From positions 2,232,001 through 2,296,000 of the forward strand of contig NZ_CP058552.1 of NCBI RefSeq assembly GCF_013401555.1: 64,000 nt of DNA. Direction: 5' to 3'. Position numbers and translations under genes: made by a program. A model generated the notes under the pieces. It ran no database searches. It saw only the letters and a program-made list of their open reading frames with translations, and was not told the DNA's origin. How positions within the stretch are numbered: position 1 is the first letter of the stretch; each line of letters begins with the position of its first letter. Positions 39,434-61,326 of the stretch are shown here, piece by piece. Source of the DNA: Paenibacillus sp. E222. GTDB taxonomy: Bacteria; Bacillota; Bacilli; Paenibacillales; Paenibacillaceae.

Positions 39434-41224
39434 ATGTTTAGAAGGCTCATACGAACATCCAACAATCTTAAATTAAAGCATAAATTGCTCATATCCTATG
39501 TACTTGTCGTCATGATTCCGGTACTGATTATTGGACTTGCTGTAACCGGATACTTTCGGAAGCAGGCGCTGGACAATGCCATTGGACAGACGATCAACAA
39601 CGTGGATAAAGTCAAAAGCCAGACCGCCACACTGCTGCGTGTACCCACAGATATTTCCAACATTCTGATGTTCAACAATGAACTGAAGGAAATTGTGAAC
39701 AAGCGTTATCAAAGCGTTGTGGAGCTTACCTCAGCTTACCTCGCATACAAAGATTTTCAGGAATATAAGCGTCTGTATCGTGAGGTTGCGGGCATCCGGT
39801 TTTACTCGACCAATCCAACGCTGATCAACAATCTGGAGTTCATTCCGGTGGATAAGCAGACCGAGGAGAGCTACTGGTACCAGAAAGCGCTGCAAACGAC
39901 GAGCATCGGTTGGTTCTACATTCCTGACAAGGGAGATAATCCGGTGCACAAGCTTAGTCTGGTTCGCAAAGTGCCTTTTGCCGAATATCGGACTGAGGGT
40001 GTACTGATGATTGAAATCAATCAGGATGAGCTGAATGGATTGTTACGTCAGGAACCGTTCGAGACGTTGATTACGGACGAACAGGGTTATGTGGTTGCTG
40101 CCAAGAATACCGAACTTGTGGGCAAGACGCTGAACGAGCTTGATTTTGGTGTAGATCTGCAAAACCAGGCCAAAGGTACACTTGAAGCTGATTTTCAGGG
40201 TGAGCCATCCAACATTATCATTGATGAGATCAGTCCTGGATCGAGCATGAATAGGCTGAAAATCATATCCGTTTTTGCCACCAAAAATATCGTCAAGGAC
40301 GCCAATACCATCAGCATGATCGGTATGCTTTTTATTACGCTTGTGCTGGTTATTGCATTGTTGCTTGTATATATCATTTCATTTCTCACGTCGAACCGAT
40401 TGTTACGCCTTAGCAAACACCTGAATAAGCTCGCACTGGGTGATCTGAATGTCACCTCCCGCATTGACGGGAATGATGAGATCGGGCAACTGTCGAGGCA
40501 GTTCAATTACATGGTGAAGAGCATTAATGAACTGATGACCCAGGTCGTGGAGGCAACGGAACAGAACAATCAATTGGAAATCGCGCAGAAAGAGATTAAA
40601 CTGAAAATGATGGCCAGCCAGATCAATCCTCATTTTTTGTTTAATGCGCTGGAGTCGATCCGCATGAAAGCCCATATCAAAGGTGAGGCGGAGATTGCCA
40701 ATATCGTCAGGCTGCTGGGCAAACTGATGCGCAAGAGCCTTGAGATTGGCAGCGGCAAAACGACGTTCAGAGCCGAACTGGAGATGGTACGTTCTTATCT
40801 GGAAATCCAGAAATTCCGTTACGGCGACCGACTTGCTTTCCAGATCCATATCGATCCGGAGGTGGAGAAGATGTACATCCCTCCTTTGATCATTCAGCCT
40901 CTGGTTGAGAATGCGATTGTGCATGGTTTGGAAAATAAAGAGGGCACAGTCCGTGTGAATATAAATATTCATTTGGTGAAGGATGTTGTCCAGGTGTGTG
41001 TGGATGACGATGGGGCAGGCATTACGCCGGAGCGTCTGGCTGAAGTGATGCAGTTCATCTGTGGACCGGAAGAACAGGAGAAGAGCCGGATTGGCATGCG
41101 TAACGTACATCAACGTTTAACGTTGACTTACGGCGAGCCATACGGATTACAGATTAAGAGTGTGTATGGGGAAGGAACAGAGGTTTCTTTCACCTTGCCA
41201 GCAGGAGGAGACCAGCATGTATAA
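39434..41224 (+). CDS. YesM-type sensor histidine kinase
   Basis: This 596-aa membrane kinase has TM1 (about 19-40), an extracytoplasmic sensor domain (about 41-292), TM2 (about 295-317) and HAMP (about 318-370). The His_kinase domain has H400 in QINPHFLFNALESI, and an ATPase domain shows PPLIIQPLVENAIVHG. GGAAGG precedes the ATG. The family senses extracellular carbohydrate, often with the cognate binding protein, and pairs with YesN-type regulators. Here it overlaps its regulator gene by 8 bases and sits directly upstream of the sugar transporter genes. Confidence 0.94.
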   Translation: MFRRLIRTSNNLKLKHKLLISYVLVVMIPVLIIGLAVTGYFRKQALDNAIGQTINNVDKVKSQTATLLRVPTDISNILMFNNELKEIVNKRYQSVVELTSAYLAYKDFQEYKRLYREVAGIRFYSTNPTLINNLEFIPVDKQTEESYWYQKALQTTSIGWFYIPDKGDNPVHKLSLVRKVPFAEYRTEGVLMIEINQDELNGLLRQEPFETLITDEQGYVVAAKNTELVGKTLNELDFGVDLQNQAKGTLEADFQGEPSNIIIDEISPGSSMNRLKIISVFATKNIVKDANTISMIGMLFITLVLVIALLLVYIISFLTSNRLLRLSKHLNKLALGDLNVTSRIDGNDEIGQLSRQFNYMVKSINELMTQVVEATEQNNQLEIAQKEIKLKMMASQINPHFLFNALESIRMKAHIKGEAEIANIVRLLGKLMRKSLEIGSGKTTFRAELEMVRSYLEIQKFRYGDRLAFQIHIDPEVEKMYIPPLIIQPLVENAIVHGLENKEGTVRVNINIHLVKDVVQVCVDDDGAGITPERLAEVMQFICGPEEQEKSRIGMRNVHQRLTLTYGEPYGLQIKSVYGEGTEVSFTLPAGGDQHV

Positions 41225-42821
41225 AGTGTTATTGGTAGATGATGAACCGAGCATACGTGAAGGACTGACAACAATCATTGATTGGGAAAAATACGGCTTT
41301 CAGGTGTTTGGTACAGCTGCGAGCGGGCGAGAGGCCATCACCCGCTTCGAAGAACTGGAACCGGACCTGACAATCATCGATATTCGTATGCCCGGCATGA
41401 CCGGACTGGATGTCATTGAGGAAGTGCGGCAGCACCATCCGGGTTCGCACTTTCTAATTCTGAGCGGGTACGCCGATTTTGATTATGCCAAGAAAGCTAT
41501 TAGCTTTGGCGTGGATGGGTATCTGCTCAAGCCGGTGGATGAAGAGGAGATTATCAGTGAGCTAGAGCGGATCTCTGTGATGCTGACACGGGAACGGGAG
41601 ACACTGGCCCGTCATGCTGGTGAGGATACAGCCTACCGGGAGCACCAGATTGAAGCGTTGCTTTTGGATAGCCTGGAAGGTACGGAAACAATGGAAGCAA
41701 ATGCGCTAGGATTGAATTGGTCGCAGTATCAGGTTGTGCTGCTGGAGATGCATGCCGAACCTGATTTACAGCGTGGCAGTGTGGTGAAACGCAGACTGGC
41801 GGAAGCTTTTGACCAGAAAGATCGGGGCATTGTGTTTTCGTTCCATTCCGGACTTGGACTGTTATGTAAAGACCCTATTCTGACTGTACAATCTGCGCAG
41901 CGTTTATATGATGAGTTGGAAGGGCTGCTGGGAGAATGGAATATTCATATGTACGCGGCAGCAGGTCAACCTGTAAACTCCACCGCAGACATCGCCCAAT
42001 CCTATAACCAGGCCAACGGTGTACTGGGCGGACGTTTCCTGTTTGCGGAACAACGTGTGATGTTATGGAACGAAGGCGAAAAGAGCAAAAGTGCTTCAGA
42101 ACCTGTTATTGCGATGGAGGAAGAAAGTGGTGAACCGGATGAAGCAGAACTGGCGGACAAGCTGTATTATGCGCTCGATATTCGGAGCAGCGAGTCCGTG
42201 ATGCGTGTGTTGACCGAGATGGAGGAACGCCTGATTCTTCATCATCAGACAGAACAGGCGATTAAAACGGCGTTCTCCCAAGTGTTTTCATTGGCGATTA
42301 ACAAACTTGCGGCAGCCAATCAGCATATGCAATCCATTATGCAGGAGCATTCCGTTCTCATTACAGAGGTTTATCATCAATTAACGTTGATGGATCTCAA
42401 AGTGATGGCCGCTGAACACCTGAACCGGCTTATTCAACGCATGGGTGGAGGCAGCAAGGATACGGTACTGAAACAGATGATTGAATTTATCCGTCGTAAT
42501 CCGGGCGAAAATCTCAAGCTGGAGGTACTCGCTGAGGTATTTAACTACAATAGCAGTTATCTGGGCAAGCTGTTCAAGAATCATACCGGGGAATATTTCA
42601 ATGCATTTCTCGATAAGGTTCGAATGGAGAAGGCGAAGGAACTGCTTGATGAAGGCTTAAAGGTACATCAGGTTGCCGCAAGAGTAGGGTATGCCAACGT
42701 GGATTACTTCCACGGCAAATTCAAAAAGTATGTAGGGGAATCACCTTCCGCTTACAAACATGCGAGAGAGCTTGCCAGATCACAGTCCAAGGATTCTTCA
42801 GGAGAGCCCGAACGGGAGTAG
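41217..42821 (+). CDS. YesN-type response regulator with AraC DNA-binding domain
   Basis: This 534-aa protein has a receiver domain (1-120; DDE at 8-10, phospho-acceptor D55 in IIDIRMPGM, K near 105), a long helical linker and an AraC-type double HTH at about 430-530 (LAEVFNYNSSYLGKLFKNHTG, AARVGYANVDYFHGKFKKYVG). The start at 41217 follows CAGGAGGAG. It is expected to activate the downstream permease and binding-protein promoters. The -35 of the permease promoter is poor, consistent with activator dependence. Confidence 0.94.
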   Translation: MYKVLLVDDEPSIREGLTTIIDWEKYGFQVFGTAASGREAITRFEELEPDLTIIDIRMPGMTGLDVIEEVRQHHPGSHFLILSGYADFDYAKKAISFGVDGYLLKPVDEEEIISELERISVMLTRERETLARHAGEDTAYREHQIEALLLDSLEGTETMEANALGLNWSQYQVVLLEMHAEPDLQRGSVVKRRLAEAFDQKDRGIVFSFHSGLGLLCKDPILTVQSAQRLYDELEGLLGEWNIHMYAAAGQPVNSTADIAQSYNQANGVLGGRFLFAEQRVMLWNEGEKSKSASEPVIAMEEESGEPDEAELADKLYYALDIRSSESVMRVLTEMEERLILHHQTEQAIKTAFSQVFSLAINKLAAANQHMQSIMQEHSVLITEVYHQLTLMDLKVMAAEHLNRLIQRMGGGSKDTVLKQMIEFIRRNPGENLKLEVLAEVFNYNSSYLGKLFKNHTGEYFNAFLDKVRMEKAKELLDEGLKVHQVAARVGYANVDYFHGKFKKYVGESPSAYKHARELARSQSKDSSGEPERE

Positions 42822-42881: not shown

Positions 42882-42891
42882 AAAACGTTTT
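42882..42891. promoter_or_regulatory. AAAACGTTTT palindrome (site 1)
   Basis: A perfect 10-bp palindrome in TATAAAACGTTTTCGGA context, upstream of the yesN terminator. The core is identical to five others in this locus. Confidence 0.6.
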
Positions 42892-42910
42892 CGGACTTGT
42901 CGTTTATTTA

Positions 42911-42934
42911 AAGGACCCTTGAGGTCCTTTTTTT
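42911..42934 (+). terminator. Terminator after the yesN-type gene
   Basis: AAGGACC (42911-42917) pairs with GGTCCTT (42923-42929), followed by T residues. Confidence 0.85.
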
Positions 42935-42962
42935 AATTTTAGATGAAGTAAACGGTTTCTAT

Positions 42963-42972
42963 AAAACGTTTT
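42963..42972. promoter_or_regulatory. AAAACGTTTT palindrome (site 2)
   Basis: In ATAAAACGTTTTCGAAAA, about 90 bases upstream of the permease -10 box; a good position for an activator or a LacI-type regulator. Confidence 0.6.
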
Positions 42973-43179: not shown

Positions 43180-44163
43180 ATGGAAACGCTAACAGAAAAA
43201 TCCGCTTCCGCGAAAAAAGGCAGTGACCCCAATCCGTCAACACAAAAACGGCGGAACAGAGTTTGGGACAGTATGAAACAGCAAAAGTATCTCTATCTCA
43301 TGTCATTGCCATTCGTAGCTTGGGTTTTTGTATTTAACTATCTGCCACTATGGGGATGGACGATGGCTTTTCAAAACTATAAACCGGCCAGATCGTTCGG
43401 CGATCAACAGTGGGTTGGTTTTAAACACTTTGCAGAGCTGTTCAGCGATGATCGCTTCTATCTGGTACTTCGAAATACGCTCGCAATGAGCTTGATGGGA
43501 CTGGTTGTCGGTTTTATCGTGCCGATTTTCTTTGCGATTCTCTTGAATGAGATGAGAGGCATGTTCTTTAAGCGCGCCGTGCAAACGGTATCATATCTGC
43601 CTCACTTTGTATCCTGGGTCGTTGTGGCAGGGATTATTACCAAGATGCTCTCCACCGATGGCGGGATTATCAATGATCTTTTGGTAAACCTAAACATTAT
43701 CGATCAGCCGATCCAGTTCATGGCGAAGGGGAACTTGTTCTGGTACATTGTAACCGCTTCAGATATGTGGAAGGAAACCGGTTGGAATGCGATCATCTAT
43801 TTGGCGGCCATTACTGGTATTGACCAGGAGCTTTACGAAGCATCCCGTGTAGACGGAGCAAACCGCTGGAGACAGATGTGGCACATTACACTGCCAGGCA
43901 TACGGACCACGATTTCCGTACTTTTCATCATGTCGATCGGGCATCTGATCAGTATCGGTTTTGAGAAGCAATTTTTGCTGCAAAACAGTCTGGTGCTAGA
44001 TTACTCTGAAGTCCTTGATCTATACGCGCTCAATTATGGTTTAAATATGGGACGATTCTCGTATGGTACAGCCATAGGCATATTCAACTCCGTTGTCAGT
44101 ATTATCCTTCTGTTTACAGCGAACGGATTGTTCAAAAAATTCACCAAAGAAAGCATCATGTAG
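43180..44163 (+). CDS. Carbohydrate ABC permease, LplB/YteP type
   Basis: This 327-aa permease has a polar Lys-rich N-terminus (1-35), six helices and the EAA loop EASRVDGANRWRQM. It belongs to the Paenibacillus/Bacillus group associated with complex oligosaccharide uptake (LplB, YteP, YtcP partners). GAGGAGGGGG upstream of the ATG predicts strong translation. It forms the membrane channel with the next gene; the ATPase must come from elsewhere. Confidence 0.93.
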   Translation: METLTEKSASAKKGSDPNPSTQKRRNRVWDSMKQQKYLYLMSLPFVAWVFVFNYLPLWGWTMAFQNYKPARSFGDQQWVGFKHFAELFSDDRFYLVLRNTLAMSLMGLVVGFIVPIFFAILLNEMRGMFFKRAVQTVSYLPHFVSWVVVAGIITKMLSTDGGIINDLLVNLNIIDQPIQFMAKGNLFWYIVTASDMWKETGWNAIIYLAAITGIDQELYEASRVDGANRWRQMWHITLPGIRTTISVLFIMSIGHLISIGFEKQFLLQNSLVLDYSEVLDLYALNYGLNMGRFSYGTAIGIFNSVVSIILLFTANGLFKKFTKESIM

Positions 44164-44178
44164 GGAGGGGACGACATT

Positions 44179-45081
44179 ATGGCGAACAAAGCATTCAATG
44201 CTACTCGGGGCGATAAGCTGTTCGATATATTCAACATCCTCGCGATGACCCTGGTGCTGATTGTAACACTGTATCCATTCCTGAACGTACTGGCTATCTC
44301 ACTCAATAACTCGACAGATACCGTACGTGGTGGAATTTACTTGTGGCCTCGTGATTTCACATTGCAGAACTACAAAACGATTTTCCAATACGATGGATTG
44401 CTGCAAGGTTTGCAGGTATCCATTCTACGTACCATTGTAGGTACCGTGCTCGGTTTGATCAGTTCCTCAATGATCGCATTTACACTGAGTCGTCCTGACT
44501 TTAAGTTGAGAAAGTTTGTTTCTACTGCACTTGCACTCACGATGTATTTCTCCGGTGGTCTGATTCCGGTGTACATCCTGATGCGTGACCTGAACCTGAT
44601 CGGTACATTCTGGGTGTATGTATTGCCAGGTATGATCAGTGCGTTTAACGTGTTCATTATCCGTTCCTTCATTGATGGCCTGCCGTATGCCTTGCAGGAA
44701 TCAGCGAAGCTGGATGGTGCGAATGACTTTAAGATCTATTACAAAATCATTTTGCCGCTCTGTAAACCGGTACTTGCAACCATCGCGTTGTTCCTGGCTG
44801 TAGGCCAGTGGAATGCCTGGTTCGATACGTACCTGTATAATGGTTCGAAGGCTCATCTGACAACGCTACAGTACGAGCTGATGAAAGTACTGCAAAGTAC
44901 ACAGCAAGGCTCGGGAGCCGGACGTAACGCCAATGACATGGCACAGCAAATGACACAGATTTCACCAGAATCCATCAAAATGGCGATCACGATCGTTGTT
45001 ACGGTTCCAATCCTGATTGTGTATCCATTCCTGCAAAAGTATTTTGTAGGTGGTATGACACTGGGTGCAGTAAAAGCTTAA
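44179..45081 (+). CDS. Carbohydrate ABC permease, LplC/YtcP type
   Basis: This 300-aa permease has six helices, an EAA-like loop (ESAKLDGANDFKIYYKIILP) and the long NDMAQQMTQISPESIKMA segment before the last helix. The ending YFVGGMTLGAVKA is typical of this subfamily. GGGAGGGG precedes the ATG. It lies 15 bases after the partner permease. Confidence 0.93.
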   Translation: MANKAFNATRGDKLFDIFNILAMTLVLIVTLYPFLNVLAISLNNSTDTVRGGIYLWPRDFTLQNYKTIFQYDGLLQGLQVSILRTIVGTVLGLISSSMIAFTLSRPDFKLRKFVSTALALTMYFSGGLIPVYILMRDLNLIGTFWVYVLPGMISAFNVFIIRSFIDGLPYALQESAKLDGANDFKIYYKIILPLCKPVLATIALFLAVGQWNAWFDTYLYNGSKAHLTTLQYELMKVLQSTQQGSGAGRNANDMAQQMTQISPESIKMAITIVVTVPILIVYPFLQKYFVGGMTLGAVKA

Positions 45082-45094
45082 GCAAGTTTATACA

Positions 45095-45231
45095 GGCCGC
45101 CACATAGATAGAGCGGCCGTATAATAAAAGAAGCATCAGGATGCCCGAAGCGCAGCCCATTTGGCCTGCGCTTCACCGTATAGGGCTGCGGAGTGGCATT
45201 CATGAAGCTATAGACAGGGACAAAAAGTCCC
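45095..45231 (+). promoter_or_regulatory. Structured spacer between permease and first binding-protein gene
   Basis: Hairpin A is GGCCGC (45095-45100) / GCGGCC (45113-45118). Hairpin B is GAAGCGCAG (45147-45155) / CTGCGCTTC (45166-45174). An alternative pairing joins CGCAGCCC (45151-45158) to GGGCTGCG (45183-45190) and excludes B. Hairpin C is GGGAC (45217-45221) / GTCCC (45227-45231). There is no U-tract and no promoter, so this RNA is probably read through and stabilises or tunes the binding-protein message. Confidence 0.6.
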
Positions 45232-45267
45232 GAATAGACAGACATATGAAACGGGAGGATTACCATT

Positions 45268-46956
45268 ATGGCAAGAAACAAAATGAAGATTGCACTGGCT
45301 CCAGTGCTTGCGATGTCTTTGCTCGCAGGTTGCGGTGGAGGAAACAGCGGCGATACGTCGTTTAAGGACACAAGCGGTGATACATCTCCGATTACTTTCG
45401 ACTTTTTTAGTGTAGATCCAAGTCCGAACTGGAACGGTATGAAGGATGAAGTGGGTAAAGTCCTTACAGAGAAAACAGGAGTAACCCTAAACGGTGAATT
45501 TGCCGTCAGTGGTGGTCAGGATAAAGTATCTTTGATGGCAGCAAGCGGAGAGTATCCGGATATCGTGTCACCCAAAGGAGAGCTGAGCAAGCTCGTGGAT
45601 GCTGGGGCAATGGTCGATCTGACTGATCTGATCGAGCAATATGCTCCCAATCTGAAGAAGCTGTATGGTAATTACATGGACCGGCTGAAATATAGCAACG
45701 AAGATCAAGGGATTTATGTACTGCCTACGTATTATGCGGTAGACCAGAAGTATTTTGATGCAGGCGGCGGATTTGGGATTCAGCAGCGTGTATTGAAAGA
45801 GCTTGGATACCCTGAAGTGCGTACGCTCCAGGATTACGAAAATGTATTGAAGGCATATAAGGAGAAACATCCAACGATTGACGGACAGCCAACAATTCCG
45901 TTATCCCTGGACGCAGATGACTGGAGAATCATGATTACCGTAACGAATCCGGCCTTCTTCGCAACAGGCGCTCCGGATGATGGCGAGTACTATATTGATC
46001 CTGAGACCTATGAGGCAAGTCTGCATTACAAACGTCCGGAAGAGAAAGAGTATTTCCGTTGGTTGAACCACATGTATGCGGAAGGACTGCTTGATCAGGA
46101 TAGCTTCGTACAGAAAACGGATCAATACAAATCCAAAATCGCAAGTGGACGTGTACTGGGCGTCATTGACCAGGATTGGGGTTATTCCGATGCCGAGAAT
46201 GCATTGAAAGCAGCGGGCAAAGATGAAGCGACCTATTCACACTTCCCGGTAACTCTGTCTAAAGATATCAAGGATCATTCCTTCCAGGACCCTGGTTTTG
46301 TATCTGGATGGGGTGTAGGGATTACAACATCGAATCCGGACCCGGTTCGTACCATTAAATTCTTTGATTACCTGGCTTCGGATGAAGGTCAAGTGCTGAT
46401 GAACTGGGGTATTGAAGGCAAGCAGTACGAAGTGAAAGATGGCAAACGTGTGATTCCTGCTGATGTGCTGGACCAAAAAACGAATAATGCTGCCGTATTC
46501 CAGAAAGAAACAGGTATTGGCCTCTATACCAATATGTCTGGTCACTATGGAGATGGTGTTAAAGATTCTACAGATAACTATTACACAACGAATTTCCCTG
46601 AACAGATTGTAGCGGCCTATTCCGATGCGGAGAAAGAGACACTCAAAGCATACGGCGCAACAACATGGAAAGATCTGTTCCCAAGTGAAGATGAGTTCCC
46701 GGTTAAACCATGGGGAGCAGCGTACAATATGCCGACTCCAGGTGACTCGAATTACAATGTTATTTTCCAAAAAACACAGGATATTATCCGTAAACGGATT
46801 CCAGAAGCGATCCTCAGTTCCCCTGAAAAATTTGATTCCATTTATGATGGGATGATTGCCGAGCTGAACAAAGCCGGAGCAGAGGACATGGAAAAACAAT
46901 ACACTGAGCTGGTGCAAAGCCGTGTTCAATTGTGGAGCGGTGAAGAGAGCAAGTAA
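45268..46956 (+). CDS. Oligosaccharide-binding lipoprotein 1 (LplA/YtcQ type)
   Basis: This 562-aa lipoprotein has lipobox SLLAGC (C22) and a large family 1 binding domain (DFFSVDPSPNWNGM through the C-terminal EKQYTELVQSRVQLW). It is clearly paralogous to the next two genes but less similar to them than they are to each other. It differs in likely pocket stretches, for example TYYAVDQKYFDAGG where the others have TNMGVDNVAFDATGG. GGGAGG precedes the ATG. It is read from the permease transcript, so it is probably the core binding protein of the importer. Confidence 0.93.
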   Translation: MARNKMKIALAPVLAMSLLAGCGGGNSGDTSFKDTSGDTSPITFDFFSVDPSPNWNGMKDEVGKVLTEKTGVTLNGEFAVSGGQDKVSLMAASGEYPDIVSPKGELSKLVDAGAMVDLTDLIEQYAPNLKKLYGNYMDRLKYSNEDQGIYVLPTYYAVDQKYFDAGGGFGIQQRVLKELGYPEVRTLQDYENVLKAYKEKHPTIDGQPTIPLSLDADDWRIMITVTNPAFFATGAPDDGEYYIDPETYEASLHYKRPEEKEYFRWLNHMYAEGLLDQDSFVQKTDQYKSKIASGRVLGVIDQDWGYSDAENALKAAGKDEATYSHFPVTLSKDIKDHSFQDPGFVSGWGVGITTSNPDPVRTIKFFDYLASDEGQVLMNWGIEGKQYEVKDGKRVIPADVLDQKTNNAAVFQKETGIGLYTNMSGHYGDGVKDSTDNYYTTNFPEQIVAAYSDAEKETLKAYGATTWKDLFPSEDEFPVKPWGAAYNMPTPGDSNYNVIFQKTQDIIRKRIPEAILSSPEKFDSIYDGMIAELNKAGAEDMEKQYTELVQSRVQLWSGEESK

Positions 46957-46986
46957 TACGTTTCAGCAGACTATTTTTTCAAAAAA

Positions 46987-47014
46987 AAGGGCCCGGGAAA
47001 CTGGGTTCTTTTTT
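46987..47014 (+). terminator. Terminator after binding protein 1
   Basis: GGGCCCGG faces CTGGGTTC around a GAAA loop with G-U pairs, followed by T6. Confidence 0.6.
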
Positions 47015-47020
47015 ATACCT

Positions 47021-47044
47021 AAAACGTTTTCCAAAAAACGTTTT
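47021..47044. promoter_or_regulatory. Paired AAAACGTTTT palindromes (sites 3 and 4)
   Basis: Two perfect copies, at 47021-47030 and 47035-47044, lie 20 bases upstream of the -35 box of the binding protein 2 promoter. Confidence 0.65.
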
Positions 47045-47063
47045 CAATTTTGTGAATTCACTA

Positions 47064-47113
47064 TTGACAAGGACTTTTAGAGGGATTATTATTCAAATAT
47101 GAAAGCACTTTCA
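47064..47113 (+). promoter_or_regulatory. Promoter with cre at +1 (binding protein 2)
   Basis: TTGACA (47064-47069), 17 bases, TATTAT (47087-47092), then TGAAAGCACTTTCA (47100-47113), one mismatch from the cre consensus. CcpA bound there would block initiation. Confidence 0.8.
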
Positions 47114-47333
47114 TTACTGGTTTATCAAGGTATGTACACGAATCTATCCAGTCATAAGGAGTACAGATCTATTGCTCGAAATCTGAGAAGAGAGAGTGTT
47201 TTTCACTTCATTTAGAAAACGCTTTTTATGTTATAAAATCAAACGTTTTACAATGAGCCACCCGATCACGGTATGTGCAGGTAAGCCTGTTCTACAATAG
47301 ATAGCTTCATTTTATCCATAAGGGGGATTACAC

Positions 47334-49037
47334 ATGAAGGGCAAAACACCAAAAACATTCGCAATGCTTCTGTTAGCCAGCGCTCTTGCCATTACAGCAG
47401 GATGCAGCGGTAGCGGAGGAGGAAATACGGCTTCAGACACTCCAAAGGACACAGGGGATACGACCAGTCCAATCACCTTTACGTTCTTTGGTGCTGACGC
47501 AAGTCCAAACTGGAACAACATGAAGGACGCAGTCGGCCAAGAAATTACGAAACAGACAGGTGTTACAATTGAAGCCGAGTATGATGTGAATAATGGTGGC
47601 GACCAAAAGATACCTTTGATGGCTGCCAGCGGTGAATACCCTGATATTATCTATCCTAAAGGTAACTTGTCTAAGCTTGTGGATGCAGATGCGATGCTTG
47701 ACCTGACAGATCTGATTGACAAATACGCACCAAACCTGAAAAAGATCTATGGGGACCAAATGAACCGTCTGAAATATAGTTTGGAAGATCAGTCCATTTA
47801 CACGATCCCAACGAACATGGGTGTAGATAATGTTGCGTTTGATGCTACAGGCGGATTCGAGATTCAGCAAAAGGTATTGAAAGAACTCGGCTACCCAGAA
47901 GTGAAAACACTTGAGGATTACGAGAAAGTTCTGAAAGAATATTATGCTAAACATCCAACCATTGACGGACAGCCAACCATTCCGCTGACGCTGAATGCGG
48001 ATGACTGGAAGATTATGATTACGGTAACGAATCCAGCCTTCCAGGCAACAGGTGGACCGGATGACGGTGAATATTACATTAACCCTGAAACGTATGAAGC
48101 TGTGCTGCACTACAAACGTCCAGAGGAGAAAGAATATTTCCGCTGGTTGAACAAAATGTACAATGAAGGCATTCTGGACAAAGATACTTTTGTGCAGAAG
48201 GACGATCAATACAAATCCAAAATCGCAAGCGGTCGGGTACTGGGGCTGATTGACCAGGAATGGAACTATGGTGAAGCTGAGAATGCTTTGAAATCAGTTA
48301 ACAATGGCGAGAATACGTACGCTCACTTCTCTGTATCCCTCAACAAGGATATTGTGGATCATACGTTCCAACCAACGGGCTTCGATGGATATGGCATCGG
48401 AATTTCGAAAACGGCAAAAGACCCTGTACGTATTATCAAATTCATGGATTGGCTCGCTTCGGATGAAGGTCAGGTGCTGAGAAACTGGGGGATTGAAGGC
48501 CAACACTACAACGTTGAAAATGGCAAACGTGTCATCCCTGCTGATGTGCAGGACCGCAAAGTCAATGATAACTCGGCGTTTACCAAAGAAACTGGTATCG
48601 GAATGTACAACATTTTCAGCGCTAGATATGGCGATGGTGTCAAAGATTCCACAGGTAATTACTACACAACGAACTTCCCTGAGCAGATCCAAGCAGGATA
48701 TACTGCGGCAGAGAAGGAGACATTGAAAGCCTATGGCATTACAACGTGGAAAGATTTTTATCCTTCTGAAGACGACTTGAAGCTGAAAGATTGGGGCGCA
48801 GCATATAACATGCCTGTACCTTCGGATACGGATTATAACGTAACGTTCCAGAAAACACAGGACATTATCCGTAAACGTATTCCTGAAGCCGTCCTTGCCA
48901 AACCTGAGAAATTCGACCAAGTGTATGATGGTCTCTTGGCTGAGCTTGATAAAGCAGGTGCTGTAGAGATGGAGAAACAATATACCGTTTGGATCAAGGA
49001 ACGTGTATCTCTCTGGACAGGTAAAGACGTGAAATAA
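47334..49037 (+). CDS. Oligosaccharide-binding lipoprotein 2
   Basis: This 567-aa paralogue of the preceding gene has lipobox ITAGC (C24) and a Gly/Thr-rich linker. The same large binding domain follows, with FTFFGADASPNWNN, EAEYDVNNGGDQK and IASGRVLGLIDQEW. By eye it is roughly nine-tenths identical to binding protein 3 over most of the mature domain. It is monocistronic, between its own promoter and terminator, with AAGGGGG before the ATG. It probably feeds the permeases at 43.2-45.1 kb with a related ligand. Confidence 0.93.
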   Translation: MKGKTPKTFAMLLLASALAITAGCSGSGGGNTASDTPKDTGDTTSPITFTFFGADASPNWNNMKDAVGQEITKQTGVTIEAEYDVNNGGDQKIPLMAASGEYPDIIYPKGNLSKLVDADAMLDLTDLIDKYAPNLKKIYGDQMNRLKYSLEDQSIYTIPTNMGVDNVAFDATGGFEIQQKVLKELGYPEVKTLEDYEKVLKEYYAKHPTIDGQPTIPLTLNADDWKIMITVTNPAFQATGGPDDGEYYINPETYEAVLHYKRPEEKEYFRWLNKMYNEGILDKDTFVQKDDQYKSKIASGRVLGLIDQEWNYGEAENALKSVNNGENTYAHFSVSLNKDIVDHTFQPTGFDGYGIGISKTAKDPVRIIKFMDWLASDEGQVLRNWGIEGQHYNVENGKRVIPADVQDRKVNDNSAFTKETGIGMYNIFSARYGDGVKDSTGNYYTTNFPEQIQAGYTAAEKETLKAYGITTWKDFYPSEDDLKLKDWGAAYNMPVPSDTDYNVTFQKTQDIIRKRIPEAVLAKPEKFDQVYDGLLAELDKAGAVEMEKQYTVWIKERVSLWTGKDVK

Positions 49038-49081
49038 TATTGAAAATAAGGCATGATAAACGATCATTTTCAATGCAAAAT

Positions 49082-49106
49082 AGGTCCCTTGAGAGGGGCC
49101 TTTTTT
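49082..49106 (+). terminator. Terminator after binding protein 2
   Basis: AGGTCCC (49082-49088) pairs with GGGGCCT (49095-49101), followed by T6. Confidence 0.82.
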
Positions 49107-49110
49107 GTTG

Positions 49111-49159
49111 TTGACGAAAGGGTAAGGATAGCATATAATCTTTAATGTAAGCACTTTCA
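49111..49159 (+). promoter_or_regulatory. Promoter with cre at +1 (binding protein 3)
   Basis: TTGACG (49111-49116), 17 bases, TATAAT (49134-49139), then TGTAAGCACTTTCA (49146-49159), one mismatch from cre. Same arrangement as for binding protein 2. Confidence 0.82.
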
Positions 49160-49184
49160 GTAAGCGTTTTTATATTATTTTACG

Positions 49185-49194
49185 AAAACGTTTT
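49185..49194. promoter_or_regulatory. AAAACGTTTT palindrome (site 5)
   Basis: About 38 bases after the predicted start of the binding protein 3 transcript; a downstream roadblock position. Confidence 0.6.
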
Positions 49195-49355
49195 ATGTAA
49201 GCTGAGGAAAGTGTTCATGATTTTCGCCTTTGATAAAAAAATAGTACAAATTTAATTTTTGGTAAGCGCATACAGAAATGTGTCTTACAGCGGTATCCTC
49301 AGGCCTAAAGCCTGTTATACAGATAAAACCTTCATAATAATAGGGGGACTAGACA
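49195..49355 (+). other. Long leader of binding protein 3
   Basis: The leader contains CAGGC-CTAAA-GCCTG (49300-49314) about 40 bases before the start. It then shares a CCTGTT.TACA..ATA block and AGGGGGA with the leader of binding protein 2. No open reading frame of note. Confidence 0.5.
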
Positions 49356-51053
49356 ATGAGAGGCAAAATGAAAGGCAATACACCCAAGACGTTTGCAATG
49401 TTGATGCTCGCAAGTGCAATGCTGGTTACAGCTGGCTGCGGAAATTCGGGAAGCAAAGAAGCCTCGGAGTCCAGTGGAACCGATCCGGTTACTTTTACAT
49501 TCTTTGGTGCGGATGCGAGTCCAACCTGGAACAAGATGCAGGATGCAGTTGGTAAAGAGATCACCAAGCAAACAGGCGTTACGATTGAAGCTGAGTATGA
49601 TGTTAACAATGGTGGAGACCAGAAAATTGCACTTATGGCTGCTAGCGGCGAGTTTCCCGATATCGTTTTCCCAAAAGGTAACTTGTCTAAGCTAGTAGAT
49701 GCAGGGGCAATGCTTGACCTGACGGAACTGATTGAGGAGCATGCTCCAAACCTGAAAAAAATATATGGTGACCAGATGAACCGGCTGAAATACAGTTCGG
49801 AGGATCAGGCCATTTATACAATCCCAACGAATATGGGTGTTGATAATGTAGCGTTTGACGCAACAGGCGGATTTGAAATTCAGCAAAAAGTACTGAAAGA
49901 GCTCGGATACCCTGAAGTAAAAACACTTGAGGATTACGAGAATGTATTGAAAGAATATGTGAAAAAACACCCAACCATTGACGGACAGCCGACCATTCCA
50001 TTGACGCTGAATGCAGATGATTGGAAAATTATGATTACCGTAACGAACCCGGCCTTCCAGGCAACTGGAGCACCGGATGATGGAGAATATTATATCGATC
50101 CTGAGACCTATGAAGCTACGCTCCATTACAAACGTCCAGAGGAGAAAGAATATTTCCGCTGGTTGAATCATATGTACAATGAAGGACTGCTGGACAAAGA
50201 TACATTTGTCCAAAAGGATGATCAATATAAATCCAAAATCGCAAGTGGTCGTGTACTTGGTCTGATTGACCAAGAGTGGAATTATCAAGAAGCGGAGAAT
50301 GCACTCAAATCAGCGGGCAAAGATGACAGCACATATGCTCACTTCTCTGTATCCCTGAACAAGGACATTGTGGACCATACATTCCAGCCAACCGGATTTG
50401 ACGGATATGGCATCGGGATCACAACTTCTGCCAAAGATCCAGTTCGCATTATCAAATTCATGGACTGGCTCGCTTCGGACGAAGGTCAGGTGCTGAGAAA
50501 CTGGGGGATTGAGGGCGAACACTACAATGTAGAGGATGGTCAACGGGTGATCCCTGAAGACATCCAGGATCGTAAAACCAATGACAACTCTAACTTCACC
50601 AAAGAAACAGGAATCGGTCTGTATAATGTGTTTAGTGCGCGATATGGTGATGGTGTGAAAGATTCCACGGATAACTATTATACAACGAACTTCCCTGAGC
50701 AGATCCAGGCTGGTTATACTGCGGCAGAGAAAGAAACGTTGAAAGCATATGGCATTACAACATGGAAAGACTTCTATCCTTCAGAGGATGATTTGAAGCT
50801 GAAAGACTGGGGCGCAGCATACAACATGCCAGTACCTTCAGGTACAGATTATGAAGTAACGTTCCGAAAAACACAGGATATCGTGCGCAAACGTATTCCT
50901 GAAGCTGTTCTGACTTCAGCTGCGAACTTTGATAAAGTGTACGATGATTTCCTCGCTGAGTTGGACAAAGCCGGCGCAGTTGAGATGGAGAAACAGTACA
51001 CGGTTTGGGTTAAGGATCGTGTTTCCCTGTGGACAGGTAAGGACGTAAAATAA
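49356..51053 (+). CDS. Oligosaccharide-binding lipoprotein 3
   Basis: This 565-aa lipoprotein has lipobox LVTAGC (C28) and is the closest paralogue of binding protein 2, from FTFFGADASPTWNK to the identical WTGKDVK ending. Differences from protein 2 are scattered and conservative. Its own promoter and terminator flank it, so the duplication seems to have carried the regulatory region with it. GGGGGAC precedes the ATG. Role as for the other two. Confidence 0.93.
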   Translation: MRGKMKGNTPKTFAMLMLASAMLVTAGCGNSGSKEASESSGTDPVTFTFFGADASPTWNKMQDAVGKEITKQTGVTIEAEYDVNNGGDQKIALMAASGEFPDIVFPKGNLSKLVDAGAMLDLTELIEEHAPNLKKIYGDQMNRLKYSSEDQAIYTIPTNMGVDNVAFDATGGFEIQQKVLKELGYPEVKTLEDYENVLKEYVKKHPTIDGQPTIPLTLNADDWKIMITVTNPAFQATGAPDDGEYYIDPETYEATLHYKRPEEKEYFRWLNHMYNEGLLDKDTFVQKDDQYKSKIASGRVLGLIDQEWNYQEAENALKSAGKDDSTYAHFSVSLNKDIVDHTFQPTGFDGYGIGITTSAKDPVRIIKFMDWLASDEGQVLRNWGIEGEHYNVEDGQRVIPEDIQDRKTNDNSNFTKETGIGLYNVFSARYGDGVKDSTDNYYTTNFPEQIQAGYTAAEKETLKAYGITTWKDFYPSEDDLKLKDWGAAYNMPVPSGTDYEVTFRKTQDIVRKRIPEAVLTSAANFDKVYDDFLAELDKAGAVEMEKQYTVWVKDRVSLWTGKDVK

Positions 51054-51088
51054 CTTAGTTTTAATGGAATAGGTGGATATACAAAAAA

Positions 51089-51113
51089 AGGCCCTGAGCA
51101 AGGGTCTTTTTTT
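51089..51113 (+). terminator. Terminator after binding protein 3
   Basis: GGCCCT (51090-51095) pairs with AGGGTC (51101-51106), followed by T7. Confidence 0.8.
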
Positions 51114-51135
51114 GCTGACGATGTGATGTTTAACA

Positions 51136-51186
51136 TTGACGCAAATTTCGAAATCAAATATAATTTTCTTACTGTAAGCACTTTCA
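51136..51186 (+). promoter_or_regulatory. Promoter with cre at +1 (GH95-GH1 operon)
   Basis: TTGACG (51136-51141), 17 bases, TATAAT (51159-51164), then TGTAAGCACTTTCA (51173-51186). It matches the binding protein 3 control region in boxes, spacing and cre. Confidence 0.82.
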
Positions 51187-51266
51187 GATAAACGACGATT
51201 TAGCCTTGTGGGGAAGCGATTAGGAACAAGTAAAACAGTATAAGTAGTGGTTATTTAGTTACTTCG

Positions 51267-51276
51267 AAAACGTTTT
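51267..51276. promoter_or_regulatory. AAAACGTTTT palindrome (site 6)
   Basis: In TTCGAAAACGTTTTAG, about 43 bases before the GH95 start codon and 95 after the predicted transcript start. Confidence 0.6.
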
Positions 51277-51318: not shown

Positions 51319-53700
51319 ATGTCCCCATTTAATGAGAGAACAAAAGAAAACCGTCTGTGGTATCGTCAGCCCGCTAGTCGCTGGGAAGAGGCATTGCCTA
51401 TCGGTAATGGTCGCCTTGGCGCTATGGTGTACGGCGGAGCAGCGGATGAACAAATCCAGCTAAATGAAGATACATTGTGGTCCGGATTTCCACGTGACAC
51501 CATCCAGTACAGTAGTCAGCGATACCTGAAGCAGACCCGGGAACTGATCATGTCCGGGCAATACAGCGAAGCTGAACAATTGCTGAATCGCGAAATGCTG
51601 GGACGTGATGTGGAAGCTTACCAGCCGATGGGTCACTTTAAGTTGCAGCACACTGAACTGGATGGGATTCCGTACGATGAATTTGAGCGGGAGCTTAATC
51701 TCCACACCGGGATTACAACGACGAAGTATTCATATAAAGGGATTCGTTATGTACGTGAGGTGTATGCTAGTGCACCGGATGATCTCATGGTCTGTACCAT
51801 CACTGCTGATCGTGAGGGATCTGTAAACGTAAGCGTTACGTTGGACAGTCCACATCCTTATAACGTTCAGGCTTCGGGCGATGCACTTACCTTGTTCAGT
51901 CGTTGTCCAAGTCATGTTGAATCGAATTATTTCAGGGATCATCCGGAGTCCGTCATTTACGAAGAAGATCGGGGAACGGCTTATGCTGTGCGACTGGCCA
52001 CAACTGTGACAGGTAAGAATGCCGAAGTATCGGATATGAACGGGAAGCTTCATATTCAGGGAGCAGACCAGGTTATTTTTTATTTGACAGCAGCGACTGC
52101 CTTTGAAGGCTATGATGTGACTCCTGTTAAAGATGGTGTGCTTCTGGATCAGGAGTGCAGCGAGGTAATCACTAAAGCGATGGCCCATGGCATGAAGGCT
52201 CTTCAAGAGCGGCATGTGATGGATCATGAGGCTTTATTTTCAAGAGTATCTATTCATCTCGGCGTGTCTACCAATGAAGCTTTGCCTACCGATGAACGGC
52301 TGCAAGCTTACCAGGCTGGAGCCGATGATCCCGGCCTAGAGGCACTCTATTTTCAGTATGGCAGATATCTGTTAATGGGTAGTTCACGTGAAGGGAGCCA
52401 GCCAGCCAATCTGCAGGGAATCTGGAACCATCAGGTGGAGCCGCCCTGGCACAGTGATTACACGATTAACATCAATACCGAGATGAATTACTGGCCGGCA
52501 GAAGTATGCAACCTGAGTGAATGCCATGAGCCGCTGTTTGGTTTGTTGAAGGATCTAAGCGATACCGGGAGAAGGACGGCACGCATTTTGTACGGAGCGC
52601 GCGGCTGGGCAGCCCATCATAATGTGGATATATGGCGGACATCCACGCCTACAGGCGGAGACGCAAGTTGGGCGTTCTGGCCAATGGGCGGTGTGTGGCT
52701 GACTTCACATTTATGGGAGCATTATCTGTTTACCCGTGATCAGCAATTCCTCGCGGAACGTGCGTATCCAATCATGAAGGAAGCGGCACTCTTCTGTCTG
52801 GACTGGCTGATGGAGGGACCGGACGGATATTTGGTTACCGCTCCATCAACCTCTCCAGAGAACAAGTTTCTCACCGAGGAAGGTGAAGCTCGCAGCATCT
52901 CCATGGCTTCGACGATGGATATGACATTGATTCGTGAGTTGTTCGATCGATGCATTGAGGCAACCAAACAGCTGGATGTGGATCAGCAGCTGGCGAAGGA
53001 ATGGAGCGAGGCACGCAGCAAGCTCTATCCATTCAAGATCGGAAGCGAAGGGCAGCTGCAGGAATGGTTTAAGGATTTTGCCGAATCCGAACCAGGGCAT
53101 CGTCACGTCTCCCATCTGTATGGTCTGTATCCGGGGGAGCAGATCAATCGATTGGATACGCCGGAACTTGTGGAAGCAGCACGAGTGTCACTTGAACGTC
53201 GCATCACACAAGGTGGCGGGCATACAGGTTGGAGCTGTGCTTGGCTGATCAATCTGTATGCGAGGCTGCTGGATAGCAAGCTGGCACACCAGTTTGTCCG
53301 TACGTTGCTGGCTCGATCCACACATCCCAATCTGTTCGATGATCATCCGCCGTTCCAGATCGATGGCAATTTTGGTGGCACTGCCGGTATTGCCGAGATG
53401 CTATTACAAAGCCATTTGGGTGAATTACATCTGCTGCCAGCGCTGCCTGAGCACTGGGCCAGTGGCAGTGTAAAGGGACTTCGGGCACGAGGGGCATATA
53501 CAGTGGCAATCGATTGGACAGACGGTAGACTCACACACGCCGAAATAAAGGCTGATCACGCCGGTTCAATAACCATTCGGAGTGCATGCCCACTCCGTGT
53601 GGAAGGAAAAGATCAGGTCAAGGCGCAGCTTACACTTCAGGGTGATTATGTAGTTATTTTAACCATGACCGCAGGACAGATGATCCGCGTGTCATCATGA
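51319..53700 (+). CDS. GH95-family glycosidase (alpha-L-fucosidase type)
   Basis: This 793-aa enzyme has the GH95 layout: an N-terminal beta-domain opening LWYRQPASRWEEALPIGNGR and NEDTLWSG, then an (alpha/alpha)6 barrel. The barrel carries NLQGIWNH, the NINTEMNYWPAE asparagine motif, a SPENKFLT glutamate and PPFQIDGNFGGTAGIAEML, whose Asp is a family catalytic residue. It removes alpha-L-fucose or, in some members, alpha-L-galactose by inversion. No signal peptide, so it acts on imported oligosaccharide. AGGAG precedes the ATG. First gene of a pair with GH1. Confidence 0.92.
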   Translation: MSPFNERTKENRLWYRQPASRWEEALPIGNGRLGAMVYGGAADEQIQLNEDTLWSGFPRDTIQYSSQRYLKQTRELIMSGQYSEAEQLLNREMLGRDVEAYQPMGHFKLQHTELDGIPYDEFERELNLHTGITTTKYSYKGIRYVREVYASAPDDLMVCTITADREGSVNVSVTLDSPHPYNVQASGDALTLFSRCPSHVESNYFRDHPESVIYEEDRGTAYAVRLATTVTGKNAEVSDMNGKLHIQGADQVIFYLTAATAFEGYDVTPVKDGVLLDQECSEVITKAMAHGMKALQERHVMDHEALFSRVSIHLGVSTNEALPTDERLQAYQAGADDPGLEALYFQYGRYLLMGSSREGSQPANLQGIWNHQVEPPWHSDYTININTEMNYWPAEVCNLSECHEPLFGLLKDLSDTGRRTARILYGARGWAAHHNVDIWRTSTPTGGDASWAFWPMGGVWLTSHLWEHYLFTRDQQFLAERAYPIMKEAALFCLDWLMEGPDGYLVTAPSTSPENKFLTEEGEARSISMASTMDMTLIRELFDRCIEATKQLDVDQQLAKEWSEARSKLYPFKIGSEGQLQEWFKDFAESEPGHRHVSHLYGLYPGEQINRLDTPELVEAARVSLERRITQGGGHTGWSCAWLINLYARLLDSKLAHQFVRTLLARSTHPNLFDDHPPFQIDGNFGGTAGIAEMLLQSHLGELHLLPALPEHWASGSVKGLRARGAYTVAIDWTDGRLTHAEIKADHAGSITIRSACPLRVEGKDQVKAQLTLQGDYVVILTMTAGQMIRVSS

Positions 53701-53716: not shown

Positions 53717-55063
53717 ATGACGATTTTTCAATTTCCACAAGATTTCCGCTGGGGAACAGCAACAGCTTCCTATCAGATAGAAGGGGCAGCGCAGGAAGGC
53801 GGACGCGGGGTATCCATCTGGGATACGTTTGCCCGCACGCCCGGCAAAGTATTCAATGGAGACAATGGTGATGTGGCTTGTGACAGTTACCACCGTTACG
53901 AGGAAGACATCGAGCTGATGAAAAAGCTTGGCATCAACACCTACCGATTCTCGATCGCCTGGCCACGTATTATTCCTGATGGAGATGGCGAGATCAATCG
54001 GGAAGGATTGGACTTCTATCATCGATTCGTGGATAAGCTGCTTGAAGCGGGAATCGAACCATTCTGTACGCTGTATCACTGGGACCTGCCTCAGACGTTG
54101 GAGGATATCGGAGGTTGGGGCAATCGCAGAACGGTGGATGCATTTGTAAAATATGCTGAAGTCATCTTCAAGGAGTTTTCCGGTAAAATTAACTTTTGGC
54201 TGACTTTCAATGAACCATGGTGTATTGCGTTTCTGTCCAACCTGCTTGGTATTCATGCGCCAGGAAATAAGGACCTGCAAACATCCATTAATGTTGCACA
54301 CGGACTGCTCGTTGCTCACGGTAAAGCTGTTCAATCATTCCGTCGCTTGGGTACAACAGGACAGATTGGTATTGCACCCAATGTATGCTGGGCTGAGCCT
54401 TACAGCAAATCTCCTGAAGATCAGGCAGCCTGCGACCGTTCCATTGCACTTAATACCGATTGGTTCCTTGATCCGATCTACAAAGGAGCTTATCCACAAT
54501 TTATGGTGGACTGGTTCGCAGAAGCTGGCGCGACCGTACCTATTCAGGAAGGCGATATGGAGATCATCTCGCAACCCATTGATTTGCTGGGCATCAACTA
54601 TTACACCATGGGAATTAATCGTTATAATCCAGAGGCGGGTGTATTGCAATCTGAAGAGGTGGATATGGGACTTACCAAGACTGACATCGGCTGGCCTGTG
54701 GAATCACGAGGACTGTATGAGTTCATGCATTATTTGCAAAAATACGGAAATGTGGATGTCTACATCACAGAAAATGGTGCTTGCATCAATGATGATTTGG
54801 AAAATGGCAAAATCAATGATGACCGCCGTATTGCCTACTATGAGCAGCATTTGGCTCAAATTCATCGGATTATCAACGACGGCATTAATTTGAAAGGCTA
54901 CATGGCGTGGTCTTTGATGGATAACTTTGAGTGGGCGGAGGGTTACCGTATGCGCTTTGGTCTTGTGCATGTCGATTACCGTTCGCTGGTCAGAACACCT
55001 AAAGAGAGCTTTTATTGGTATCAGAATGTCATCAAAAATAATTGGTTGGAGACACGAATTTAA
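53717..55063 (+). CDS. GH1 beta-glycosidase
   Basis: This 448-aa retaining glycosidase has acid/base E166 in TFNEPWC, nucleophile E352 in YITENGA, the N-terminal FRWGTATASYQIEGA and the GYMAWSLMDNFEWAEGY aglycone region. It lacks the phosphate-binding loop of 6-phospho-glycosidases as far as I can tell, so it is a beta-glucosidase or beta-galactosidase type. It is cytoplasmic, 16 bases after GH95 with GGAGG, and likely finishes degradation of the imported oligosaccharide. Confidence 0.93.
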   Translation: MTIFQFPQDFRWGTATASYQIEGAAQEGGRGVSIWDTFARTPGKVFNGDNGDVACDSYHRYEEDIELMKKLGINTYRFSIAWPRIIPDGDGEINREGLDFYHRFVDKLLEAGIEPFCTLYHWDLPQTLEDIGGWGNRRTVDAFVKYAEVIFKEFSGKINFWLTFNEPWCIAFLSNLLGIHAPGNKDLQTSINVAHGLLVAHGKAVQSFRRLGTTGQIGIAPNVCWAEPYSKSPEDQAACDRSIALNTDWFLDPIYKGAYPQFMVDWFAEAGATVPIQEGDMEIISQPIDLLGINYYTMGINRYNPEAGVLQSEEVDMGLTKTDIGWPVESRGLYEFMHYLQKYGNVDVYITENGACINDDLENGKINDDRRIAYYEQHLAQIHRIINDGINLKGYMAWSLMDNFEWAEGYRMRFGLVHVDYRSLVRTPKESFYWYQNVIKNNWLETRI

Positions 55064-59999: not shown

Positions 60000-60085
60000 A
60001 CCTATTGGATTGCACGGAATGCGGGTAGAATAAGGGAAGGGACAAATGAATTCCAATAAGGCGAGAATATTGTCGAAAAAAGTTC

Positions 60086-60144
60086 TTGATTTTTTTTCTC
60101 GAATCCGTATACTCAGACATATAAGTAATCCGAAACGTTTTGGA
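60086..60144 (+). promoter_or_regulatory. Promoter and self-operator of the second LacI gene
   Basis: TTGATT (60086-60091), 16 bases, TATACT (60108-60113). The operator TCCGAAACGTTTTGGA (60129-60144) includes the TGGA of the Shine-Dalgarno TTTGGAGG, so the regulator probably shuts off its own transcription. Confidence 0.72.
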
Positions 60145-60153
60145 GGAAAGCAA

Positions 60154-61170: not shown

Positions 61171-61236
61171 GTTTAGCTGAGAATACGGTTCACGAGGAAT
61201 TGCAAAATGAACGAGATGAAGAGAGCACCGAAATGT

Positions 61237-61293
61237 TTTATGAAATCCGAAACGTTTCGGTATTATTTTCAATCAAATCCAAAACGTTTCGGA
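61237..61293 (+). promoter_or_regulatory. GH65 promoter with two operators
   Basis: TTTATG (61237-61242), 18 bases, TATTAT (61261-61266). TCCGAAACGTTTCGGT (61246-61261) fills the spacer and TCCAAAACGTTTCGGA (61278-61293) covers the region after +1. The two centres are 32 bases apart, about three helical turns. Confidence 0.75.
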
Positions 61294-61326
61294 TACAACA
61301 TAAGATAGACATAGGGGGAATACACA

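Follow-up and report, generated by a model that had tools for sequence, protein, structure and literature searches.

Paenibacillus sp. E222 (genome of 7.5 Mb) carries a locus in which one LplB/LplC-type permease pair is followed by three solute-binding lipoproteins (SBPs) of the same family, and this raises the question of why three capture proteins should stand beside one channel. The locus lies in a stretch of 64,000 nucleotides (contig NZ_CP058552.1, positions 2,232,001 to 2,296,000; the window). The order along its + strand is histidine kinase, AraC-type regulator, LplB, LplC, SBP1, SBP2, SBP3 and two glycoside hydrolases (GH) of families GH95 and GH1, according to the list of open reading frames (ORFs), Pfam and TIGR03356. 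An earlier note on this DNA had proposed either exchangeable specificity subunits or dosage of the capture protein. Both are indicated, and they divide between the copies: SBP1 and SBP2/3 look like two pocket classes, whereas SBP2 and SBP3 look like a dosage or regulation pair with a common pocket. We suggest from the sequence, with somewhat better than an even chance, that this is one xyloglucan-type importer in which three SBPs of two pocket classes, one class being held as a dosage pair, deliver to one permease. The anatomy is well supported: the sequence shows the architecture and its conservation, the pocket partition, a signal of exchange within genomes and the conserved palindromes. Use of one permease by all three SBPs, the transcription units, the class of ligand and the role of the partition are inferred.

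According to this proposal, the system would be an oligosaccharide ATP-binding cassette (ABC) importer resembling the xyloglucan importers, with a two-component system, LplB/LplC and no ATPase of its own, and the three lipoproteins would feed one permease. SBP1 would be expressed along with the permease and represent one type of pocket. The other type would be that of SBP2 and SBP3, two genes with promoters and operators of their own that serve for dosage or regulation, and between which gene conversion would preserve part of the similarity of the binding domains. A beta-1,4-glucan backbone would probably be gripped by all three via the same conserved contacts; what would set the classes apart is the way in which side-chain decorations or the non-reducing end are bound.

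Pocket residues and copy history of the three binding proteins

The single permease pair (PF00528) and the three lipoproteins of one family (PF13416) stand exactly where the earlier note had placed them, all on the + strand. With two BPD_transp_1 permeases and SBPs, all above the cut-off, the locus has the parts of a CUT1/LplBC-type oligosaccharide ABC importer. The earlier description of SBP2 and SBP3 as nearly identical in the mature domain was overstated; they are the closest pair, with identities of 86.6% over the full length and 88.9% in the ordered domain. SBP1 is, as had been noticed, more diverged, being 68.4% identical to SBP2 and 68.8% to SBP3 (70.8% and 71.5% in the ordered domain). 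The divergence includes the suspected pocket segment, TYYAVDQKYF in SBP1 and TNMGVDNVAF in SBP2/3, which corresponds in the alignment to residues 161-167 of Athe_2052, a hinge/contact segment. Among the best 80 of 119 relatives, the SBP2 proteins of Paenibacillus taichungensis, P. xylanivorans and two further strains are 97-98% identical to SBP2. A structure model of SBP1 (predicted local distance difference test score 85.6) gave 5gx8 (a Streptobacillus glycosaminoglycan-binding protein), AlgQ2, AlgQ1 and FusA as best Foldseek matches, at query template-modelling scores of 0.61-0.65, so that the modelled fold appears to be that of cluster G (AlgQ1/2, FusA, Smon0123), for which PMC5717064 describes an EF-hand-like calcium site as a feature. 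The structure 9PMY was absent among the 50 Foldseek matches listed for the model.

The closest solved relative by sequence is Athe_2052 (PDB 9PMY; E 2.6e-143 for SBP1), reported in PMC12710961 to bind XXXG at 14 nM, with eleven named contacts. Lys111, Trp226, Asn234 and Trp311 are retained in SBP1, SBP2 and SBP3. In all three, Glu56 (Asp), Ile162 (Thr), Asn436 (Asp), Trp494 (Tyr), Asp167 (Gln or Asn) and Gln88 (gap or Asn) are replaced. Tyr109 is retained only in SBP2, being Ser in SBP1 and Phe in SBP3, and the modelled contacts are thus not fully conserved. Across relatives, 8 of the 11 contact columns (Asp, Lys, Thr, Trp, Asn, Trp, Asp, Tyr) are uniform in the three SBP groups, the exceptions being one Ser and one gap in SBP1 rows. 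These columns were scored on SBPs longer than 500 residues, which left 33 of the 35 genomes with a triple locus (G057 and G059 dropped out). The Tyr109 column separates the classes: it is Ser in 54/54 type-1 proteins and Tyr or Phe in 102/102 type-2/3 proteins that stand in place behind the permease (33 SBP2, 33 SBP3, 13 from one- or two-copy loci or L094, and 23 from named single loci), and also in 27/27 orphan SBPs scored. These counts exclude the loci of Saccharibacillus, P. dauci, P. wulumuqiensis and P. nuruki, the outgroups and the fourth SBP of the source genome (Ser); the 15 Saccharibacillus rows, counted apart, hold Phe (7), Met (5) or Tyr (3). At the neighbouring hinge position 163, type-1 proteins carry Tyr and type-2/3 proteins Asn.

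Fixed differences were scored as columns that distinguish groups at the 95% level. There are 47 of them between SBP1 and SBP2 plus SBP3, seven being in the signal peptide. Those that can be aligned to Athe_2052 cluster near the contacts, with 11/39 lying within 2 residues of one (3.9 expected, p=6e-4); windows of 3 and 5 residues gave p=0.0025 and 0.0011.

The full-length protein tree was built from SBP ORFs of more than 380 residues with an identity of 50% or higher. SBP1 forms a clade of 56 rows (local support 0.91) and SBP2/3 one of 102 rows including orphans (0.76), within which the SBP2 and SBP3 proteins of the triple genomes form one clade of 35 each (0.98 and 1.0). A recent local duplication was ruled out, since the full-length copies group by position across species and dS between SBP2 and SBP3 is 1.4. 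Clean vertical orthology of SBP2 and SBP3 was also considered and is weakened; the two resolve as reciprocal clades in just one of eight codon segments, 0-70. Further in-place duplications were found in L094, P. dauci/P. wulumuqiensis and Saccharibacillus, by a tree restricted to the same SBPs longer than 500 residues (148 of 232 rows kept). Placing the first Saccharibacillus copies in the SBP1 clade was tried (forced clade, approximately unbiased test p 0.015), but this grouping was chosen after the tree had been seen and the arrays are possibly mosaics, and we claim neither kinship nor convergence.

Under divergence alone since duplication, two copies from one genome would be expected to resemble each other no more than copies from different genomes do. 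For SBP2 and SBP3, however, the fraction of shared residues encoded by the same codon is 0.599 within genomes and 0.558 between them (p=0.0002; 0/5000 shuffles reached the observed value), and the excess is present in every segment except the first 70 codons (p=0.21). It is also found in 20 non-redundant genomes (0.606 vs 0.557, codons 70-556). The natural reading of this signal is that gene conversion has acted in part, chiefly on the SBP2-SBP3 pair.

One could argue for pure dosage, in which the three SBPs would have one ligand and similar affinities for it, extra copies serving only to increase the amount of capture protein per permease. The eight common contact columns, the exchange between SBP2 and SBP3 and the purifying selection seen in the 12 pairs compared (dN/dS 0.03-0.12) would agree with it. 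We nevertheless consider it unlikely, in view of the 47 fixed columns and their clustering, the fully partitioned Tyr109 column, and the far smaller exchange of SBP1 with the other two. The opposite possibility, three separate specificities with one per copy, would be in line with the separate clades of SBP2 and SBP3 and with the 11-13% of residues at which the two differ. It seems quite improbable to us: SBP2 and SBP3 have only 8 fixed differences, of which five fall in the signal peptide or N-terminal linker and none coincides with a contact, and the Tyr or Phe state at the Tyr109 column varies within the SBP2 group as well as within the SBP3 group.

Conservation, proposed permease sharing and control regions

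Gene order was read around the LplB orthologue in 60 same-genus genomes including the source, the relatives being those selected automatically by the search tool. The order SBP1-SBP2-SBP3 behind LplBC is present in 35/60, and the triple arrangement is therefore not due to chance. Of the other genomes, one (L094) has a different triple, eight have two SBPs and fifteen have one, which is of type 1 in thirteen and of type 2/3 in two (L101 and L102, of genomes G051 and G018); in G046 the LplB match is partial (residues 23-263 only) and has neither an LplC nor an SBP match next to it. Named records add 23 type-2/3 single-SBP loci with the same LplBC and, in Saccharibacillus, arrays with two, three or five SBPs, the five tandem copies behind one LplBC pair being those of Saccharibacillus endophyticus (L228, 5055-14715). 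Two record titles deserve a remark. A record titled Paenibacillus polymyxa ISL-58 (L172) has the triple locus of the xylanexedens group and may be wrongly labelled, and the SBP of a record titled Neobacillus mesonae (L187) groups inside Paenibacillus, which would mean transfer or a mislabelled record.

By analogy with CuaD beside CuaA of Ruminiclostridium cellulolyticum, a case discussed in PMC12838199, one SBP copy might act as a sensor, presenting ligand to the regulatory system of the locus instead of supplying the permease, and a kinase/regulator pair does head the locus. Among single-SBP loci, however, the kinase is present at L101, L102 and L111, and the 3.5 kb upstream show none at L104-L110. 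SBP copy number thus does not track the kinase, and we hold a sensor role to be rather improbable.

That more than one SBP may deliver to the same permease is suggested by the single-type loci and by the lack of another close LplBC in the genome, where no other LplB above 55% identity was found among the matches scored. The earlier note had named a separate permease pair for SBP2 and SBP3 as refuting its proposal; a check on sequence gave, as the next nearest LplB copies in the genome, three of 51-55% identity, each with its own adjoining SBP. It is highly improbable that the partner of SBP2 and SBP3 is another permease from elsewhere in the genome, a notion to which the large permease family (97 LplB matches from 150/168 candidates scored) and the existence of related orphan SBPs without adjoining LplBC lend some plausibility, because type-2/3-only loci keep the same LplBC, the genome's only strong SBP match lies beside it in G051 and G018, and strong LplB and SBP matches co-occur in 71/99 genomes with one genome unmatched each way.

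In 18/19 of the orphan loci (L139-L156, L158), an LplB/LplC match was not seen within the 18 kb fetched; at L148, another LplBC pair with its own SBP lies two ORFs from the orphan. G046 keeps an orphan SBP despite its partial LplB, and 12/27 orphans have Asp at the Asn234 contact. Among the orphan type-2/3 loci typed by Pfam, L142, L145, L147 and L150 adjoin GH43, GH2, AraC or LacI genes, and L139 adjoins a major facilitator superfamily gene. The source genome itself has a fourth SBP relative (L054, G000:C1:7232696-7234336; 55% to SBP2) that adjoins GH43 and AraC-type regulators without a close LplBC, only a distant LplC-like gene (26%) being present in the stretch fetched; its nearest tree rows include SBPs accompanying a second LplBC pair in other genomes. 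A distant SBP paralogue (L008, G000:C1:6269920-6271524; 33%), the match to which contains one in-frame stop, adjoins an LplBC pair.

The start of SBP1 lies 186 bases past LplC and has no promoter or palindrome region of its own, and SBP1 is therefore probably read together with the permease as part of its operon. SBP2 and SBP3 had been described as separate transcription units, and the hairpins with T-runs and promoter-like sites support this without proving it. In the window, SBP2, SBP3 and GH95 are each preceded by a promoter-like TTGAC-17-TATWAT followed, 7-9 bases past the -10 box, by GWAAGCACTTTCA, a box that resembles the consensus of a catabolite (cre) site. The three best promoter-like sites (11/12 matches) are at 47064, 49111 and 51136; overall, neither the promoter-like scan (22 sites vs 18.7 +/- 3.7 in shuffles) nor the terminator-like scan (9 vs 7.0 +/- 3.0) was above chance. 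Control regions were compared in 32 triple loci (L077 and L157 were not used). The palindrome AAAACGTTTT is upstream of LplB in 32/32, SBP1 in 0/32, SBP2 in 32/32, SBP3 in 27/32 and GH95 in 24/27, and was not found in nine type-1-only loci examined. The genome holds 17 copies (reversed control 58), six of them in the SBP locus. The cre-like pattern is upstream of SBP2 in 6/32, SBP3 in 26/32 and GH95 in 12/27. Alignment scores of the control regions were 11.0 for both SBP2-SBP3 and SBP3-GH95 (shuffle means 3.3 and 3.8, maxima 10.5 and 13.0); descent of all three from a common region was not adopted, the SBP2-GH95 score of 4.0 being not above its shuffles (mean 3.4).

A LacI-family gene (L232, G000:C1:5488629) has AAAACGTTTT on both sides (5488547, 5489671) and adjoins another LplBC-SBP operon. 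Its orthologue occurs in 22/59 genomes; every one of the 20 triple genomes among the 59 has it, and none of the 10 with a type-1-only locus. As the regulator acting on AAAACGTTTT it is a candidate only, since G005, G013, G018 and G021 have the palindrome without the orthologue.

Several observations weigh against two pocket classes on a shared xyloglucan-type importer. The eleven contacts were derived by docking and simulation from an apo structure (PMC12710961), and the eight common ones would fit a single shared ligand too. Fixed differences are not significantly enriched at the exact contact columns (2/39, p=0.19), and the Gln/Asn split at the Asp167 column is present only in triple genomes. 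SBP1 also shows a small within-genome excess, 0.483 vs 0.478 with SBP2 (p=0.049) and 0.484 vs 0.476 with SBP3 (p=0.001), amounting to 0.005-0.010 overall and up to 0.02 in single segments; it persists in the 20 non-redundant genomes (codons 70-556, p=0.013 and 0.004), and the control is thus not clean. In segment trees, same-genome copies pair in only 0-2 of 33 genomes, and the exchange would therefore be partial or old. The thirteen type-1-only genomes each hold one or two further strong SBP matches elsewhere, of which some at least are type 2/3 (G032 carries both L105 and L147), so that type-1-only loci are no proof that type 1 alone suffices. The strict promoter pattern is upstream of SBP2 in 22/32, SBP3 in 27/32 and GH95 in 21/27 of the triple loci, and of LplB in 0/32. 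GH95 was not found in five triple loci (L066, L068, L082, L086, L089). Finally, the GH31 alpha-xylosidase that marks a xyloglucan cluster is not in the locus. GH31 is needed for xylose side chains; the two GH31 matches of the genome lie elsewhere, at 6200063 and 6276238, and a GH31 there adjoins GH3.

A broader version of the shared-permease proposal, which we put forward tentatively and regard as unlikely, is a two-slot receptor array. A PTY SBP with Ser or Met at the Tyr109 column would belong to the permease operon, and behind it would stand one to four promoter-autonomous PTN SBPs with an aromatic residue, their binding domains homogenised by gene conversion and their secretion signals and operators kept separate; extra copies beside other hydrolase genes may use the same permease hub. 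The PTY class precedes the PTN class in 45/51 multi-SBP loci scored, including Saccharibacillus with up to five copies. Of these 45, 33 are one closely related group, the only group covered by the exchange test, and G059 was counted as a two-copy YN,YN locus because of the 500-residue filter.

Layout of the locus

Features of the locus in window coordinates
Feature	Position	Strand	Basis or remark
Sensor histidine kinase (HAMP, His_kinase, HATPase_c)	39434..41224	+	Pfam
AraC-type response regulator	41160..42821	+	Pfam, ORF list; listed from GTG
Two AAAACGTTTT palindromes upstream of LplB (42882, 42963)	42882..42972	.	kept in 32/32 triple loci examined
LplB-type permease	43180..44163	+	PF00528
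LplC-type permease	44179..45081	+	PF00528
SBP1, binding lipoprotein, pocket type 1 (Ser at Tyr109 position, PTY hinge)	45268..46956	+	PF13416
Terminator-like hairpin and T-run 3' of SBP1	46983..47014	+	inverted repeats and reading by eye
SBP2 control region: AAAACGTTTT x2 (47021, 47035), promoter-like 47064-47092, cre-like GAAAGCACTTTCA 47101-47113	47021..47113	+	
SBP2, binding lipoprotein, pocket type 2/3 (Tyr at Tyr109 position, PTN hinge)	47334..49037	+	PF13416
Terminator-like hairpin and T-run 3' of SBP2	49082..49101	+	terminator scan
SBP3 control region: promoter-like 49111-49139, GTAAGCACTTTCA 49147-49159, AAAACGTTTT 49185-49194	49111..49194	+	
SBP3, binding lipoprotein, pocket type 2/3 (Phe at Tyr109 position, PTN hinge)	49356..51053	+	PF13416
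Terminator-like hairpin and T-run 3' of SBP3	51082..51114	+	inverted repeats and reading by eye
GH95 control region: promoter-like 51136-51164, GTAAGCACTTTCA 51174-51186, AAAACGTTTT 51267-51276	51136..51276	+	
GH95 glycoside hydrolase (family includes alpha-L-fucosidases)	51319..53700	+	Pfam, PDB relatives
GH1 beta-glucosidase	53717..55063	+	TIGR03356 above cut-off

The AraC-type regulator probably starts at the ATG at 41217, overlapping the 3' end of the kinase gene. A Pfam scan of the nine locus genes revealed no MalK/MsmX-type ATPase. As the genome has only 2 OB_MalK proteins for its 97 LplB-like matches, the ATPase is likely a MalK/MsmX-type protein encoded elsewhere and shared among importers. 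Outside the locus, the window contains a LacI-family regulator followed by a GH65 enzyme (60046-63657), and a separate fructan- or sucrose-type locus with a LacI regulator, an SBP, two ORFs overlapping permease matches and GH32 (5168-11246).

Ligand and relation to known systems

The best PDB matches of the GH95 protein are BH0842 (2rdy) and 7kmq, the third being the alpha-L-fucosidase 8zbv. In L067, the one relative tested, the long ORF before LplB encodes a GH2 enzyme. The set of GH95, GH1 and GH2, the two-component system and the homology of the SBPs together resemble the xyloglucan cluster described in PMC4780118, and we give xyloglucan-type oligosaccharides about even odds of being the ligand.

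Together with its relatives, the locus forms a natural series of one, two, three and five capture proteins per channel and of loci with either class, in which the gain of specificity without a new permease could be followed. The series also allows one to ask which contacts distinguish decorated from plain glucans. It further cautions that SBP copies in a locus are not necessarily independent specificities, as two of the three here appear to be one specificity in duplicate.

The Athe_2052-2054 importer of Anaerocellum bescii also has a permease pair, and its ATPase (Athe_1803) is encoded elsewhere, as is likely here; its account in PMC12710961 names one SBP, compared with three here. SBP2458/TMD2456-2457 of Ruminiclostridium cellulolyticum, the SBP of which has a reported dissociation constant of 3.65 nM for XXXG (PMC4780118), likewise combines a two-component system, a permease pair, an SBP and cytoplasmic glycosidases, although it is described with one SBP and with GH31, GH42 and GH3 in the cluster, whereas three SBPs with GH95 and GH1 are found here. 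Several SBPs at one transporter locus are known from the cello-oligosaccharide importer Athe_0595-0598, which differs in having two copies, Athe_0597 and Athe_0598, with ligands (G2-G5 and G2 only) demonstrated by experiment according to PMC12838199. In Pseudomonas aeruginosa, five SBPs with overlapping specificities (DppA1-A5) are described as working with one permease (DppBCDF), although for peptides and in a Gram-negative bacterium. AlgQ1 and AlgQ2 of Sphingomonas sp. A1 share one permease. These two homologous alginate-binding SBPs, fold matches of the SBP1 model at about 20% identity, are assigned to the same structural cluster in PMC5717064. No title or abstract opening on this locus or on gene conversion between SBP copies was found in the literature searched, which left most subscription journals outside its coverage. 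Several SBPs per permease are thus already known, and the pocket partition with partial homogenisation proposed here would be a variant of that arrangement.

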